A stretch of DNA of 64,000 bases from Adlercreutzia sp. ZJ304 (GTDB taxonomy: Bacteria; Actinomycetota; Coriobacteriia; Coriobacteriales; Eggerthellaceae), in NCBI RefSeq assembly GCF_011039075.1, contig NZ_JAAKEG010000003.1:62001-126000 (forward strand), read 5' to 3'. This document shows, piece by piece, positions 32,774 through 39,894 of the stretch (its first letter is position 1; each line of letters begins with the position of its first letter). The position numbers and the translations under genes were made by a program. The notes below the pieces were generated by a model, which was not told where the DNA came from, ran no database searches, and saw only the letters and a program-made list of their open reading frames with translations.

Positions 32774-34992
32774 ATGAAGAATAGTTCGCGTGTTTTTACA
32801 CGGAAGTCTATATCGCTATTGAGCGCACTTGCGCTGATTTCAACGTTAACGCCAGCAGCTGCGTTTGCTGTAGCGAGTGACGAATATTCTGCTGCGCAGG
32901 ATGCCTCTCAGGATACTCAATCTATTTCCACTTCCGAGACGGCACAAGATGGACAAAAAGATACTGCTGACGCAATGCAAAACGCCAAGCAGCCTGAAGT
33001 AGCGCTTCCAGAAGAGAAAGCATCTAGCCTGCCGGGTTTGAAGGAAGATGCAATAGTTGATGTGCCAGAAATAGTGTCGGCTAGCGTTAATCTGGATTCG
33101 CAGGAATTGCAGCCGGTTATCGTATCAAGCAATGGTCTTACCTTTCAGGTAAATTCTCAAGATGCTACGAAAGCAAGTTGTATCGGTTGGAATGGTAATG
33201 CCTTACAAGGAAATCTTGTTATCCCAGAGCAAATTGATGTTGCGGGTACTCAGGTAACTGTTACGAAAATTTGCTTGGGGGGGGGTATTTAAATGCTACT
33301 TCTGACAAGGTAGAGTCTCAAAATTCCAAAAATTTTTCGACCGCTAACGCGGCAACTACCAATGAAGATGCGGGTGAAAATGCGCTCGCCGCGAATGCGA
33401 CTGCAGCAAATGCAACCGCCGCGAATGCGACTGCAGCAAACGCGCCCACCGCAAATGGTGAAAGTTTCGCAGAACTAAATCCTTACACAACCGAATATTT
33501 TACCGATGCGGAAAAAGCACCTGAAGTAACCTCAATTACAATTCCGGCTACAGTCGAGGAAATCGACCTAGCTTTCTTCCAATTATTCCCCAACGCTCAG
33601 GCAATAACTGTTGCCGAGGGCAATCAAAACTACAAAAGCAATAACGGCATGCTGCTAGACGCAGCGCAAACTTGCCTCCTTCTCGTTCCAGAGGGAATGG
33701 AGGGCGCTGCCGTGCTTCCTGAACATACGGCCTCTGTCCCTGCTTGCGTATTTTCCCGATGCACCAAGCTTTCGGCCATAGAAACGGGAAGCGCGGTCCC
33801 TGCGCACTTCATCACTCGGAACGGTTTGTTATATATGCAAGACTTAACAACTTTGGTAGCTGCGCCCCCAGCGCTTGGTACCAGTGTGGTAATAGCGCCT
33901 GAGTGTATGCAGATTGCATCGGGCGCGTTCTGGGGCAATACAGCTTTGCAAACAATTGTTGCGAACGGAAATGTTGAAAGCATCGCTATGAGGCTAGATA
34001 ATGCTGAATTGGGCGTAACGGGTGTTGCAGGGCTAAGTGCTACACATGCAAATGCTGTCGAAAGCGAAGCATCTATTCCCTCTTTCAATCCTATAACAAC
34101 ACAGAATGCAAAAGTGGCTACTCCTTATACCGCTGCTTGGAAGGCGGCAGGTTTTACCAATTTCATTGAACCTGCCAAACCCGGCAATACGGTTAGTGAA
34201 AATGGTTTCACCTACACCCTGCTAGACGATTTTACGCTTGCGGTTGGTTGGACTGGAGAAGGTAAGCCAGAAGCAGAATTGACAATTCCTGAAATGGGTG
34301 CTGTAAACGGAGCTGAATACAGCGTGTCCACCATTACGCCGGAAGGTTTTGCTGGAATTGATTCCATTGTTGTGGCAAACATTCCAGCAAGCGTAATCGA
34401 AATAGGTAATTCTGCTTTCGCTAATTGCGTAAATTTAAAAACTGTACACTTGCCAGATACTGTACAAATAATAGGTGCTGGCGCGTTCGAAAACACAGCG
34501 CTTACCACTTTTGTTGTGCCTGCGCAGCTGCAAACAATAGGTGAAGCGGCGCTGTCTGGTCTAAATGAAACAACCATAGTAGACCTTCATGGCACAGCAG
34601 ATATATCTCCAGCCGCGCTTGGTTCTACCACAAAAGCTAGCATATATGTTCCATATAACGAAAGGGGTGTTTACGCTTGGCAGCCCGGATTGCCCACATC
34701 GGGTAATGCGATTTTGCCATTCGGCATAAAGCTGGGCACTTCTTATTTTGATATGGAAGTGGGACAAAGTGCAAGCCTGTTCGGTGGTACAGGATATATA
34801 TACGCGCCCGGTGATGCCTATGCAACTTGTAGGTATCCAGCCAGCGCATTCAGCATAAATGCGGAAGCGGGCACTATAACTGCGCGTCGTGAAGGCAATA
34901 TGCGCTTCAACATTTGGTTGCAGCTATGTCTGCCAGAAGCGCAAGTTGATGGCAGAGTGCAGGTGCGCCAGATAGATCTTACAACCCCCTAA
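32774..34992 (+). pseudogene. BspA-like leucine-rich-repeat surface protein, split by a G9 tract (probable phase variant, OFF)
   Basis: The first frame (32774-33292) begins with a signal peptide (about 1-32, ending AAAFA) and then an acidic region. It stops just past a run of nine G at 33277-33285. The second frame continues to 34992 with a five-residue ANATA-type repeat, LRR_5/BspA-type units (SAFANCVNLKTVHLPD; GAFENTALTTFVVP) and a beta-rich end. With 10 or 7 G the two frames join as CLGGGYLNATSD, giving about 739 residues; with 9 they do not. No sorting signal is visible. BspA-like proteins bind host matrix or other bacteria. The tract may equally be a permanent mutation or a sequencing error. 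Confidence 0.8.
33277..33285 (+). repeat. Homopolymeric G9 tract, candidate phase-variation switch
   Basis: Nine consecutive G lie inside the coding region of a surface protein. Adding one G or removing two restores one continuous frame. Slipped-strand changes in such tracts are the standard basis of phase variation. Confidence 0.75.
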
Positions 34993-35089
34993 TACGTTTC
35001 GGCTAATTCGGCTGAACTTCACACGAATAAGCAGACCTTAGAACAGAGGCTTTGGCAGTTGCATGCCACGATCAGTAAAGGAAAAGGAA

Positions 35090-36751
35090 ATGAGGAAACT
35101 AAGCTTGCCAAAAAGGATTACATCCTTAGCATTTGCTGCAGCTTTAGCGTGCACGATGGTTCCCGTCGCTGCGCAAACGGCAGCACCCGAAACGGCGTAT
35201 GCTGCAGGTGCAGAAGCGAAAGCTGCTGGCGCACAGATTAACGTGTCAACACCGTTTTATGTAGATTTCGGCAGTCAAAGCAACCCTTACGATGTGGCGC
35301 AGCCCAATTCTGCCAATAGTCAGGCTGCGTTAACTTCAACAAGTTTTTTCGAAAATCATAGCGAATCGCGTCTTGCGTTGGACCAAGTGGAATGCACAAA
35401 GCCAAGTGATTGGACTGGTGTTGATAACAGCTGGATAATCAGCGCGGATGGCAACAATACTATGGATTCCTCTAAGGAATTATTTAGCTTATGGATAAAG
35501 AATGAAAACACGATAGACACTAGCACAACGCCAAATTTGAAATTTGGGTACGCTACTCACGATGCTGATAAATTGCAGCGCTATAACGAGACAATAAACG
35601 AACGCTTTGAATTCAACAAAAATGAAACTCTATACTGCGCTTTCCGATTGAATCTAGATTCTGCTAGTGCAAAGGTGAACCCTAAGGCCGCTAATGGTGC
35701 TGCAGCGCGACAAGGTATAGGCACTGTGAAATTTACGTTTGACACAAATGTGTTTACGGGCGAAAAGGATGCGTTCACTACAAGTGCTACCCTTCTTGAG
35801 GACTCACTTGTTATACAAGATAAAAGCAATGGACTTATAAGTTCGGGGCAAATTTATTCTGCAAGCCAAATAAAAGCTCAAGCAAAGGATTTATCACTCC
35901 ATCAAAAAGAAGATGGAACAAACGATTCGGTTTATTATCCAATGTATAAAAGATTTGTCGAAGACGTTCAGTTGGGTGAAAGTGGTTATCCGATAAATAC
36001 AGAATATACTGCAAAAGTCCGCTGGATAACGGAAGAATACCCAATAAGAGTGATTGGTGTATGCCAAGACCATCTTAGTTCGCAAAACTATTATGGATCA
36101 GCAAGCAATTATGCAGGTCTTAGTTTTTTGATAGCTGGTGATTATAATCACGCATGTTCATTCCGGAACATGAATGGTGAAATAACTTACACGAACACCA
36201 AAGGCGAAGTAGTTACGGGCTTTTTTGCTTATGGCGGATGGGAAAAATGCGATTTTAGAAGCGAATACATGATTCCTGAATCGGAAAATTATGCAGCATT
36301 TAGGAATTATATAGCTCCAGTTGTAAAAAGAAGTACGACAACTTGGACTTTGTCGGAAAACGATTCAGGACAGATGAATCCGGTGAAGGACGATAATGGG
36401 TATTGCGAGACCGAAGATAAGCTATTTCTTCTAAGTGCTTATGAAGTTTTTGGCGAATTGGTTAGTGTTGCTGGGCATAGGCAGGGCAGGGATGGCTTTT
36501 TCCAATACCAGTGGTTTAATAGCGCAACTTATGGTAAAGGCAATACGAACTGGGGGACATCAAATATGTTGCTAGTACCATATGAGCCTACGGAAATGGA
36601 TGAGGCAAACAACACCTATAAGTATGGTTTTAGATTGCGTAGTACCGGAGAATCTGACTCTAAAGTATTCAAAGTCTTAGGATATGACGGAACTTATTCG
36701 ACGGGTTCAGCTGGATATCAAAGAAATCCGCTTACTGGTTTTTGTGTCTAA
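35090..36751 (+). CDS. Secreted protein with DUF6273-like C-terminal domain
   Basis: 553 residues from the ATG at 35090, which has AAAGGAAA upstream; the longer frame has no site. It has a signal peptide (about 1-38, ending ETAYA). A long middle section is Asn/Thr-rich with a repeated DFGSQ opening. The C-terminal 150 residues fit DUF6273: EDKLFLLSAYEVFGELV, then FQYQWFNSATYG, then YGFRLRSTGESDSKVFKVLGYDG and a terminal GFCV. DUF6273 domains are found in secreted proteins of Coriobacteriia and Firmicutes and are of unknown function. There is no membrane anchor or sorting motif, so it may be released or non-covalently bound. Confidence 0.8.
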   Translation: MRKLSLPKRITSLAFAAALACTMVPVAAQTAAPETAYAAGAEAKAAGAQINVSTPFYVDFGSQSNPYDVAQPNSANSQAALTSTSFFENHSESRLALDQVECTKPSDWTGVDNSWIISADGNNTMDSSKELFSLWIKNENTIDTSTTPNLKFGYATHDADKLQRYNETINERFEFNKNETLYCAFRLNLDSASAKVNPKAANGAAARQGIGTVKFTFDTNVFTGEKDAFTTSATLLEDSLVIQDKSNGLISSGQIYSASQIKAQAKDLSLHQKEDGTNDSVYYPMYKRFVEDVQLGESGYPINTEYTAKVRWITEEYPIRVIGVCQDHLSSQNYYGSASNYAGLSFLIAGDYNHACSFRNMNGEITYTNTKGEVVTGFFAYGGWEKCDFRSEYMIPESENYAAFRNYIAPVVKRSTTTWTLSENDSGQMNPVKDDNGYCETEDKLFLLSAYEVFGELVSVAGHRQGRDGFFQYQWFNSATYGKGNTNWGTSNMLLVPYEPTEMDEANNTYKYGFRLRSTGESDSKVFKVLGYDGTYSTGSAGYQRNPLTGFCV

Positions 36752-37836: not shown

Positions 37837-39894
37837 ATGTTAGAAAAAGCGATGCTGCAAAAAACAAAGACTAATTCAGCTTTAAAGACAATGCTCTTTT
37901 TGGCAGTCTTGTGCGCATTCGTATTAGCAATAGCCAATACAGGGCGTGCATTCGCTGCCGGCATAGATTATTCCGGCGATATGGGCATGCACATTACTGA
38001 TTCCACCGAAAATACATTCACTGGAGAAGTAAGCGTAGCAGCATCCGTCGGCATGAATATGTATATTACCGACTCTACTGAAAATACATTCACTGGAAGC
38101 GCAAGTGCAAAAACATCTACTAGCATGAATTTGTACGTTGTAGATTCCAGCACAGTCAGTCCAGTAATAAGCAATTATGAAGCCATAGAAACATCTACCA
38201 GTATGGGTATGTATGTTACCGACTCTACCAAAGAAGGCGGCATGGCAGATGGCAATACAGGTGGCAAATACAACGAAGCTACGGGCGCATTTGAAAGCAA
38301 CATGCAATTAGGTCTGTGGGTTACTAATAGTTTACTTAAGGATGACGGAACACCTAACACATCTACTACAGGGGAGTTGAATACAAACTTAGGTATTTGG
38401 GTAACGGATGGCACGCAGGTGCAGTCTTCTGATGCGGTTCATGTTAGCTGGGATTTGGGCATTCCGAATGCGCAATGGGTTGATGGTACTAACAATATCA
38501 AGGTGCAAAATATAGAACTGGAAAATGGGCAGGGTACGCTTAGTGCTCCACCAATGGATATTAAAAATATATGTGGCTACTACTTGGCAGGTTGGAAAGT
38601 TAACGGCAGCAATTATGCGCAAAGTTTAAACAACATCACTCTTCAGCCGTTTGCTGACTATACGCTCGTAGCCGATTGGCAACCCCGTATTTACGAAATA
38701 ACTATAGATGCGACAGGTAGTAGTGTCGACGATGATGCTTGGACGCAAACAAGCGGCACAAGCACATATACGGCAACTTTCACAGGACCGAATGAAAGCG
38801 TTACGCTGCCGCCTGTTGCGCAGCGAACAGGTTATACATTTAATGGTTGGGGAAATGCCCCTGCCAACAATGTAGTGAATGCTGCTGTAGTTGAAACTGA
38901 TAGCACAGAAGTATCTGCAAATAGATTAAGTGCATCATATTGTGTCAAGTGGGACGCAAACACCTATACAGTAAAGCTATACAACGATGACACATGCGAC
39001 GAAAGTACGCTGCTAGCTACTAGCGATGCGCTTAGCTATGGCGATGGAGAAGACAGCAAAGTTACGCTGCTTTCAAACGACAACCTTGCCAACGACAAGA
39101 AGCCTTACGGATTTGCTTTAGTTGGCTGGCGCACGCTGCCACAAAATAGCAATCTTGTGGCAACCACTTACAACCCGAACGGGGATGCTGCCGATAAGCC
39201 TACAGTAAAAGCGCTGGTAGACAACGTAGCTGGTCCGGCTGAATCGGGCGGCGTAGTTACTGGCAACGATGCGTTTGATGAAGATGGAAAGCAACTAAAA
39301 ACCGCACGATACATAAAGCTATATGCGGTATGGCAGCCCGTGTATAACATTGCTCTTCCGCTAACTAATGGCACAAATAGTCGTGTTGATATGACGCTAG
39401 ATGTAACACTTCATCAAATTACGGCTACTTCGGCTAATGGGCAAAATAAGAAGCTGGTAGTGGAATCTCGCTCTCCGTTCGATGTGAATGTTCTGGCAAA
39501 GTCTATACCCGTGCGCGACAGCAGTAACAAATGCGTTATAGAGCAACTATTGTGGCCCAAGGACGACTCTACAGTTACGGTTGAAGATGCGCTGAAATTC
39601 CAGTATGCGGGTTCATATGTGGGAACTACTAACGCATTTAATCAGCAATTCAACTTTGATGGCAGCACCAATACTCAGGTAGGAACCCTGACGGCCGCTT
39701 CTCAAAATGGCGAGAAACAAATGAGTGGCGACTTAACACTTGTATTCCCGGCGAATGAATTCAACTACAAGACTGATGCCTTGGTAAGCGACTTACAGGT
39801 GGCAGATATTACTTGGACTGTGCAATACGCAGGTACTGGGGCTATTAATCCCGGTAATACCTATGTATATAAATTGCCCGCAAGCGTGGGGTAA
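37837..39894 (+). CDS. Secreted repeat-strand adhesin-like protein with Flg_new/InlB-type unit
   Basis: 685 residues. A signal peptide (about 1-41, ending GRAFA) is followed by six imperfect strand repeats of the form MGMxxTDSTxN between about 48 and 205 (MGMHITDS, MNMYITDS, MNLYVVDS, MGMYVTDS, LGLWVTNS, LGIWVTDG). Then come an InlB/Flg_new-like region (SLPPVAQRTGYTFNGWG-type near 320; a second copy near 390) and a beta-rich C-terminal domain. There is no sorting signal. The alternating hydrophobic and polar repeats suggest a beta-solenoid or amyloid-like stack (inference). A GGCGG-type site precedes the ATG. Confidence 0.8.
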   Translation: MLEKAMLQKTKTNSALKTMLFLAVLCAFVLAIANTGRAFAAGIDYSGDMGMHITDSTENTFTGEVSVAASVGMNMYITDSTENTFTGSASAKTSTSMNLYVVDSSTVSPVISNYEAIETSTSMGMYVTDSTKEGGMADGNTGGKYNEATGAFESNMQLGLWVTNSLLKDDGTPNTSTTGELNTNLGIWVTDGTQVQSSDAVHVSWDLGIPNAQWVDGTNNIKVQNIELENGQGTLSAPPMDIKNICGYYLAGWKVNGSNYAQSLNNITLQPFADYTLVADWQPRIYEITIDATGSSVDDDAWTQTSGTSTYTATFTGPNESVTLPPVAQRTGYTFNGWGNAPANNVVNAAVVETDSTEVSANRLSASYCVKWDANTYTVKLYNDDTCDESTLLATSDALSYGDGEDSKVTLLSNDNLANDKKPYGFALVGWRTLPQNSNLVATTYNPNGDAADKPTVKALVDNVAGPAESGGVVTGNDAFDEDGKQLKTARYIKLYAVWQPVYNIALPLTNGTNSRVDMTLDVTLHQITATSANGQNKKLVVESRSPFDVNVLAKSIPVRDSSNKCVIEQLLWPKDDSTVTVEDALKFQYAGSYVGTTNAFNQQFNFDGSTNTQVGTLTAASQNGEKQMSGDLTLVFPANEFNYKTDALVSDLQVADITWTVQYAGTGAINPGNTYVYKLPASVG

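Follow-up and report, generated by a model that had tools for sequence, protein, structure and literature searches.

A BspA-like gene split at a run of nine G

We analysed a stretch of 64,000 nucleotides from Adlercreutzia sp. ZJ304 (the window), in which a gene for a BspA-like leucine-rich repeat (LRR) protein is divided between two reading frames at a run of exactly nine G, verified by re-reading the sequence. The features of the locus are as follows:

32774..33292, + strand: upstream reading frame (172 aa), signal peptide and first LRR-like domain
32774..32875 (end approximate), + strand: predicted signal peptide MKNSSRVFTRKSISLLSALALISTLTPAAAFAVA, from reading of the translation
33271..34992, + strand: downstream reading frame (573 aa), linker and BspA-type LRR protein, own secretion signal absent
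33277..33285, + strand: poly-G tract (G9), proposed slipped-strand switch (from sequence, homologous tracts and a structure model)
33378..33457, + strand: Ala/Asn/Thr-rich 15/30-bp tandem repeat in the linker (from sequence comparison)
34330..34653, + strand: match to LRR_5 (BspA-type leucine-rich repeat), residues 354-461 of the downstream frame
35063..36751, + strand: companion secreted protein gene, with ATG at 35063, or at 35090 behind an AG-rich stretch

The upstream frame crosses the tract and stops two codons beyond it (...ICLGGGI, then stop), and beyond the tract the downstream frame runs for more than 560 codons without a stop. The signal-peptide half and the LRR half of the gene lie in different frames across the G9, so that a change in tract length would toggle the gene. 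A split at this point between a signal-peptide ORF and an LRR/BspA ORF had been proposed from the letters and translations (the sequence-only reading), and it is confirmed by the coordinates, the translations and the LRR_5 match. Recomputation also returned the same frame arithmetic (G10 or G7 joins the frames, G8 or G9 leads to an early stop) and the same size for the joined frame, about 739 residues. A TTG at 33271 was considered as an internal start for the downstream frame and rejected: it lacks anything like a Shine-Dalgarno sequence, and with no secretion signal behind it, it would not yield a secreted protein.

The assignment to the BspA-type LRR family is supported by LRR_5 (PF13306), which matches the downstream frame with an E-value of 1.1e-23 and 83.9 bits against a curated cut-off of 27.7; the in-frame paralogues described below score 98.5 and 94.6 bits. 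Fold and sequence searches returned BspA-type LRR proteins of gut bacteria and the pneumococcal PcpA, with likeness to the solved LRR proteins 4gt6, 4fs7 and PcpA 4cp6. The signal peptide and the type of LRR suggest a surface location; no LPXTG or other anchor was identified in the BspA-like proteins.

The companion gene starts 71-98 bp downstream of the BspA gene, and from 34992 to 35090 the + strand shows no terminator-like site. A secreted protein of the companion type is also the next gene in the C12, C2, C25b and C33 paralogues, whose 3' sides were read. The companion gene is probably co-transcribed with the BspA gene, and for this reason an out-of-frame BspA gene may affect it by polarity. 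A search of the region with Rfam gave no match, and a sigma-70 scan of it found promoter-like sites no more often than in shuffled sequences. Close to this cassette, at 37837-39894 of the window, there is also a gene for a large secreted protein, which has repeats of the GMNMYITDSTENTFTG type at its N-terminus and a List_Bact_rpt-like repeat.

One tract in a family of BspA-like paralogues

Runs of G in the window have lengths of one to six, and then there is the single run of nine; the earlier statement that long G runs are very rare here is borne out, the G9 being the only run longer than six. Since each further G in a run reduces the count to only about 0.15-0.18 of that of the preceding length, we estimate that about one run of at least nine G, or fewer, is expected genome-wide on both strands. 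The genome (2.0 Mb, 98% complete) contains four such runs, six of at least eight G and eight of at least seven. Three of the four runs of at least nine G, and four of the six of at least eight, fall at the homologous codon of paralogous BspA-like genes, four genes in all. The lengths listed here for the host and for two congeneric species (G001 and G002) were taken from assemblies, one per species, and some of those from short-read assemblies could be wrong:

Host, C2 paralogue: G8, in frame, 939 aa
Host, C12 paralogue: G10, in frame, 858 aa
Host, C25, the gene of the window: G9, out of frame
Host, C25:130481 paralogue: G11, out of frame
G001, C1: G10, in frame
G001, C9 and C33: G9 each, out of frame
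G001, C14 and C16: G12 and G14, at contig ends
G002, C121: G11, in frame

The homologous site has therefore been retained in relatives with differing tract lengths, the complete copies in the two congeneric species having G9 to G11. Interrupted tracts were found as well: GGGGGTGGGGG in G001 C34, which is in frame, and GGGGGAGG in one G002 copy, which is out of frame. The two congeneric species have a G+C content of about 60%, versus 48% here. Three contigs of G001 (C14, C16 and C31; L105, L106 and L111) end at or beside G tracts, one of them in 60 artefactual Gs, and G tracts probably break short-read assemblies here.

This BspA-like subfamily is essentially confined to the genus of the host. 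Protein searches of named genomes returned only distant LRR proteins of other phyla as relatives, and protein searches of viral contigs returned none. Within the family there are also paralogues without a tract (C33, C32, C8 and C28 in the host; C4 and C36 in G001), so the protein does not need the tract. In tract-less sister proteins of the same genomes, such as C33, the hinge described next is absent.

Where a copy is in frame, Gly-Gly(-Gly) follows a few residues behind VTNIS or a slightly different form of it. In an AlphaFold model of the C12 protein, made with 12 family members (mean pLDDT 66), a first LRR-like domain (residues ~73-122) and the LRR body (from ~172) are confident, and a low-confidence loop (129-153) begins with the tract glycines 129-131. 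The tract is thus predicted by the model to encode the start of a disordered hinge, Gly-Gly-Gly in this in-frame paralogue. As in-frame copies have two to three glycines at the hinge, which tolerates both, it would be a safe site for a slippery tract. GGG is a minority codon in the window, used for 11.6% of the glycines, and the 40 long ORFs of the window contain seven Gly-Gly-Gly triplets, not one of which is written GGG-GGG-GGG; since the tract glycines are GGG throughout, codon usage points to selection on the DNA as well as on the protein.

Over about 430 bp, starting close to the tract, the window gene is nearly identical to the C2 paralogue; the flanking sequence is unrelated or much more diverged. 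The corresponding sharp-edged block aligns window 33264-33780 with L039 1284-1814, within otherwise diverged BspA paralogues. This pattern suggests gene conversion between the two genes. Despite the shared block, the tracts differ (nine G in the window gene, eight in C2), and the linker repeats are one 15-bp unit apart, a difference that keeps the frame. Upstream of the C12 and C25b BspA genes, and of these only, we observed a 102-bp block with 98% identity (L001 ~945-1045, L004 ~900-1000), which is probably a promoter or leader common to both; a different block, of 61 bp, is found in C2 and C33.

Proposed slipped-strand switching and its alternatives

Mismatch repair removes most single-base loops in homopolymers. 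MutS (MutS_I), MutL (MutL_C) and NucS (NucS_C) were not found in the host genome, with control genomes giving the expected results. Given that none of the three is detectable, tracts of 8-11 G should be unstable and slippage should be frequent here. All examined Coriobacteriia are reported to lack both mismatch-repair systems (PMC5290159), with which the result for the host agrees.

We consider it very likely that the G9 is a contingency locus, subjecting the surface-protein repertoire to slipped-strand phase variation. During replication, single Gs would be gained or lost by slipped-strand mispairing, in a cell without recognisable mismatch repair, and a clonal population would come to contain cells of differing tract length. 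At frame-joining lengths the cell would secrete the complete BspA-like LRR surface protein (ON). At all others, including the length in the assembly, it would secrete a fragment of about 170 residues and make no LRR protein (OFF). Because at least four paralogues have independent tracts at one hinge, cells should sample combinations of surface proteins, and the downstream companion gene may follow the ON/OFF state of the BspA gene by polarity. We infer slippage in the living population, together with surface exposure, polarity and a biological benefit. Phase variation had been suggested from the window sequence, and the tract lengths of 8-11 at one site in paralogues and in two congeneric species, the mixed frames and the absence of recognisable mismatch repair all support it.

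Homopolymer lengths are hard to read, annotated G-tract lengths can differ from those in the true population (PMC9187656), and in G001 some contigs end at tracts, one of them within an artefactual stretch of 60 G; the tract could therefore be real, its length miscounted, and the gene always in frame. However, a sequencing or assembly error cannot make one tract recur across three species and in each of four paralogues, of the four assembly tracts two are in frame and two out, and a miscount at one locus would leave the hypermutable design standing. We regard such an error as highly unlikely. A fixed frameshift in a decaying surface-protein gene is less probable still. The window gene is out of frame in the sole available assembly, and decay does occur, as the out-of-frame G002 copy with the interrupted GGGGGAGG indicates. 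Yet the sole disruption of the window gene lies exactly within the conserved hypermutable tract, and more than 560 codons downstream show no other lesion. An open frame of 564 codons after the tract has a chance probability of about 4e-14, and the out-of-frame copies keep more than 500 open codons. Downstream of the tract, dN/dS between the two out-of-frame copies of the host is about 0.22 (inside the range of 0.19-0.33 for the other paralogue pairs), a low value of about 0.2 that speaks against decay, although paralogue dN/dS averages the whole history and is compatible with a recent permanent OFF state. Both the error and the lone pseudogene fail because the position of the tract is conserved across the family.

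Some full-length protein could also be made from unchanged DNA, through programmed frameshifting or through slippage of transcription at the G run. Both RNA polymerase and the ribosome can slip on poly-G, and by frame arithmetic a -1 shift on G9 enters the downstream frame. This is a poorer fit: the paralogues would need different shifts (-1 for G9, +1 for G11, none for G8 and G10), and the conserved direction of shift expected of a programmed site is not seen among the G8, G9, G10 and G11 paralogues. The closest studied case, the Bifidobacterium breve pilus, is one of DNA replication slippage. We take this to be the least probable of the explanations considered, and frameshifting or transcriptional slippage may coexist at a low level with slipped-strand phase variation.

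Related systems and other candidate switches in Coriobacteriia

By mechanism and phylum, the closest known system is the G tract of the sortase-dependent pilus genes bbr_0113 and bbr_1889 of B. breve UCC2003 (PMC9187656), also a gut commensal of the Actinomycetota. As here, an intragenic G tract lies between an ORF for a secretion signal and the main surface-protein ORF, and the reference genome carries the out-of-frame form (PMC9187656). The B. breve pilus G tracts undergo replication slippage, and downstream genes are affected by polarity (PMC9187656). The B. breve protein differs in being a pilin with an LPXTG motif and a dedicated sortase, whereas here the tract lies in a BspA LRR protein; slippage was measured there by maximum depth sequencing (PMC9187656), and here it is predicted from tract lengths in assemblies. 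Unlike B. breve, the present case involves a paralogous family with the tract at one homologous hinge. By protein family, the closest are the BspA-like genes of Candidatus Mycoplasma girerdii, where a simple repeat likewise sets the frame in multiple BspA-like LRR surface proteins and several copies are OFF in the dominant type, like the OFF copies here (PMC5476646). Those genes differ in that they belong to a mollicute, have CA dinucleotide repeats, show length variants in reads and have no tract sequence in common with the genes studied here (PMC5476646). Poly-G/C loci of Campylobacter jejuni and Neisseria (PMC4965091, PMC5084427) have coding-region tracts of at least 7 and ON/OFF surface variation, in other phyla and genes.

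In the same class, surface phase variation has been described for the capsule of Eggerthella lenta (preprint PMC13174815), where it proceeds by large reversible DNA inversions and not by slippage; phase variation as such is therefore not new to Coriobacteriia. The sequence-only reading knew of no case in this class, which holds for slippage: we found no earlier one in the open-access literature. The present case is apparently the first reported for slippage in Coriobacteriia, within a known kind of system, and the family-wide tract layout is unusual in the class.

Other G tracts with a similar placement were observed. In the host genome, a G9 on the minus strand (L007, G000:C28:52804-52812) lies ahead of an ORF for a SipW/archaeal-type signal peptidase I (TIGR02228), between a leader frame of 47 codons and that of the peptidase, next to a gene for a likely SipW-dependent secreted protein. 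The only relative found, in G001, has no tract, and the C28 tract therefore remains a candidate switch. Three loci of G002 and G001 (L098, L102 and L107; near position 1501, or 29 in L102) have a G10 between TTGACA and TATCGT, in a 19-nt spacer, upstream of a gene for a secreted protein; the next gene in L107 matches class B sortase (TIGR03064). Judged by this arrangement, they are candidates for promoter-spacer phase variation in two species. Also in G001, a G10 in C22 (L108, ~1501) lies about 14 codons past the possible start of a membrane protein, where the leader frame terminates immediately behind the tract and more than 440 codons are open in the next frame.

Runs of at least 11 G were also surveyed in 11 other genomes; owing to high G+C, promoter and low-complexity sites, and contig-end artefacts, the outcome was too noisy for general statistics. 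In another genus of the family (L083, G023:C25), a G9 separates, in frame, the two target-recognition domains in the specificity subunit HsdS (PF01420) of a type I restriction system, which is a candidate for phase variation. In G029 (L082), a G11 lies in frame within the signal peptide of a collagen-binding/Cna_B-type adhesin, and in G035 (L091) the gene of another secreted protein has an out-of-frame G10 just past the signal-peptide region.

We tentatively raise the possibility, on balance somewhat doubtful, that slippage at poly-G tracts serves as a general system in Coriobacteriia, a class without known mismatch repair. It would comprise a genus-specific BspA-like family with independent switches at one hinge, together with additional poly-G switches acting on the promoter of a sortase operon, on a signal peptidase, and on adhesins and an HsdS subunit in related genera, and would generate a large set of combined surface and restriction states in each clone. 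If true, such switching exists, within an adhesin-like multigene family, in a class of common gut and oral bacteria for which no slippage-based phase variation is known. The genes of this family would then be wrongly scored as broken in single assemblies and in strain typing, and a single strain would be variable in the surface traits that host immunity or phages encounter. Since the whole class is without both known mismatch-repair systems (PMC5290159), Coriobacteriia are a natural setting in which to ask how slippage switches behave without repair.
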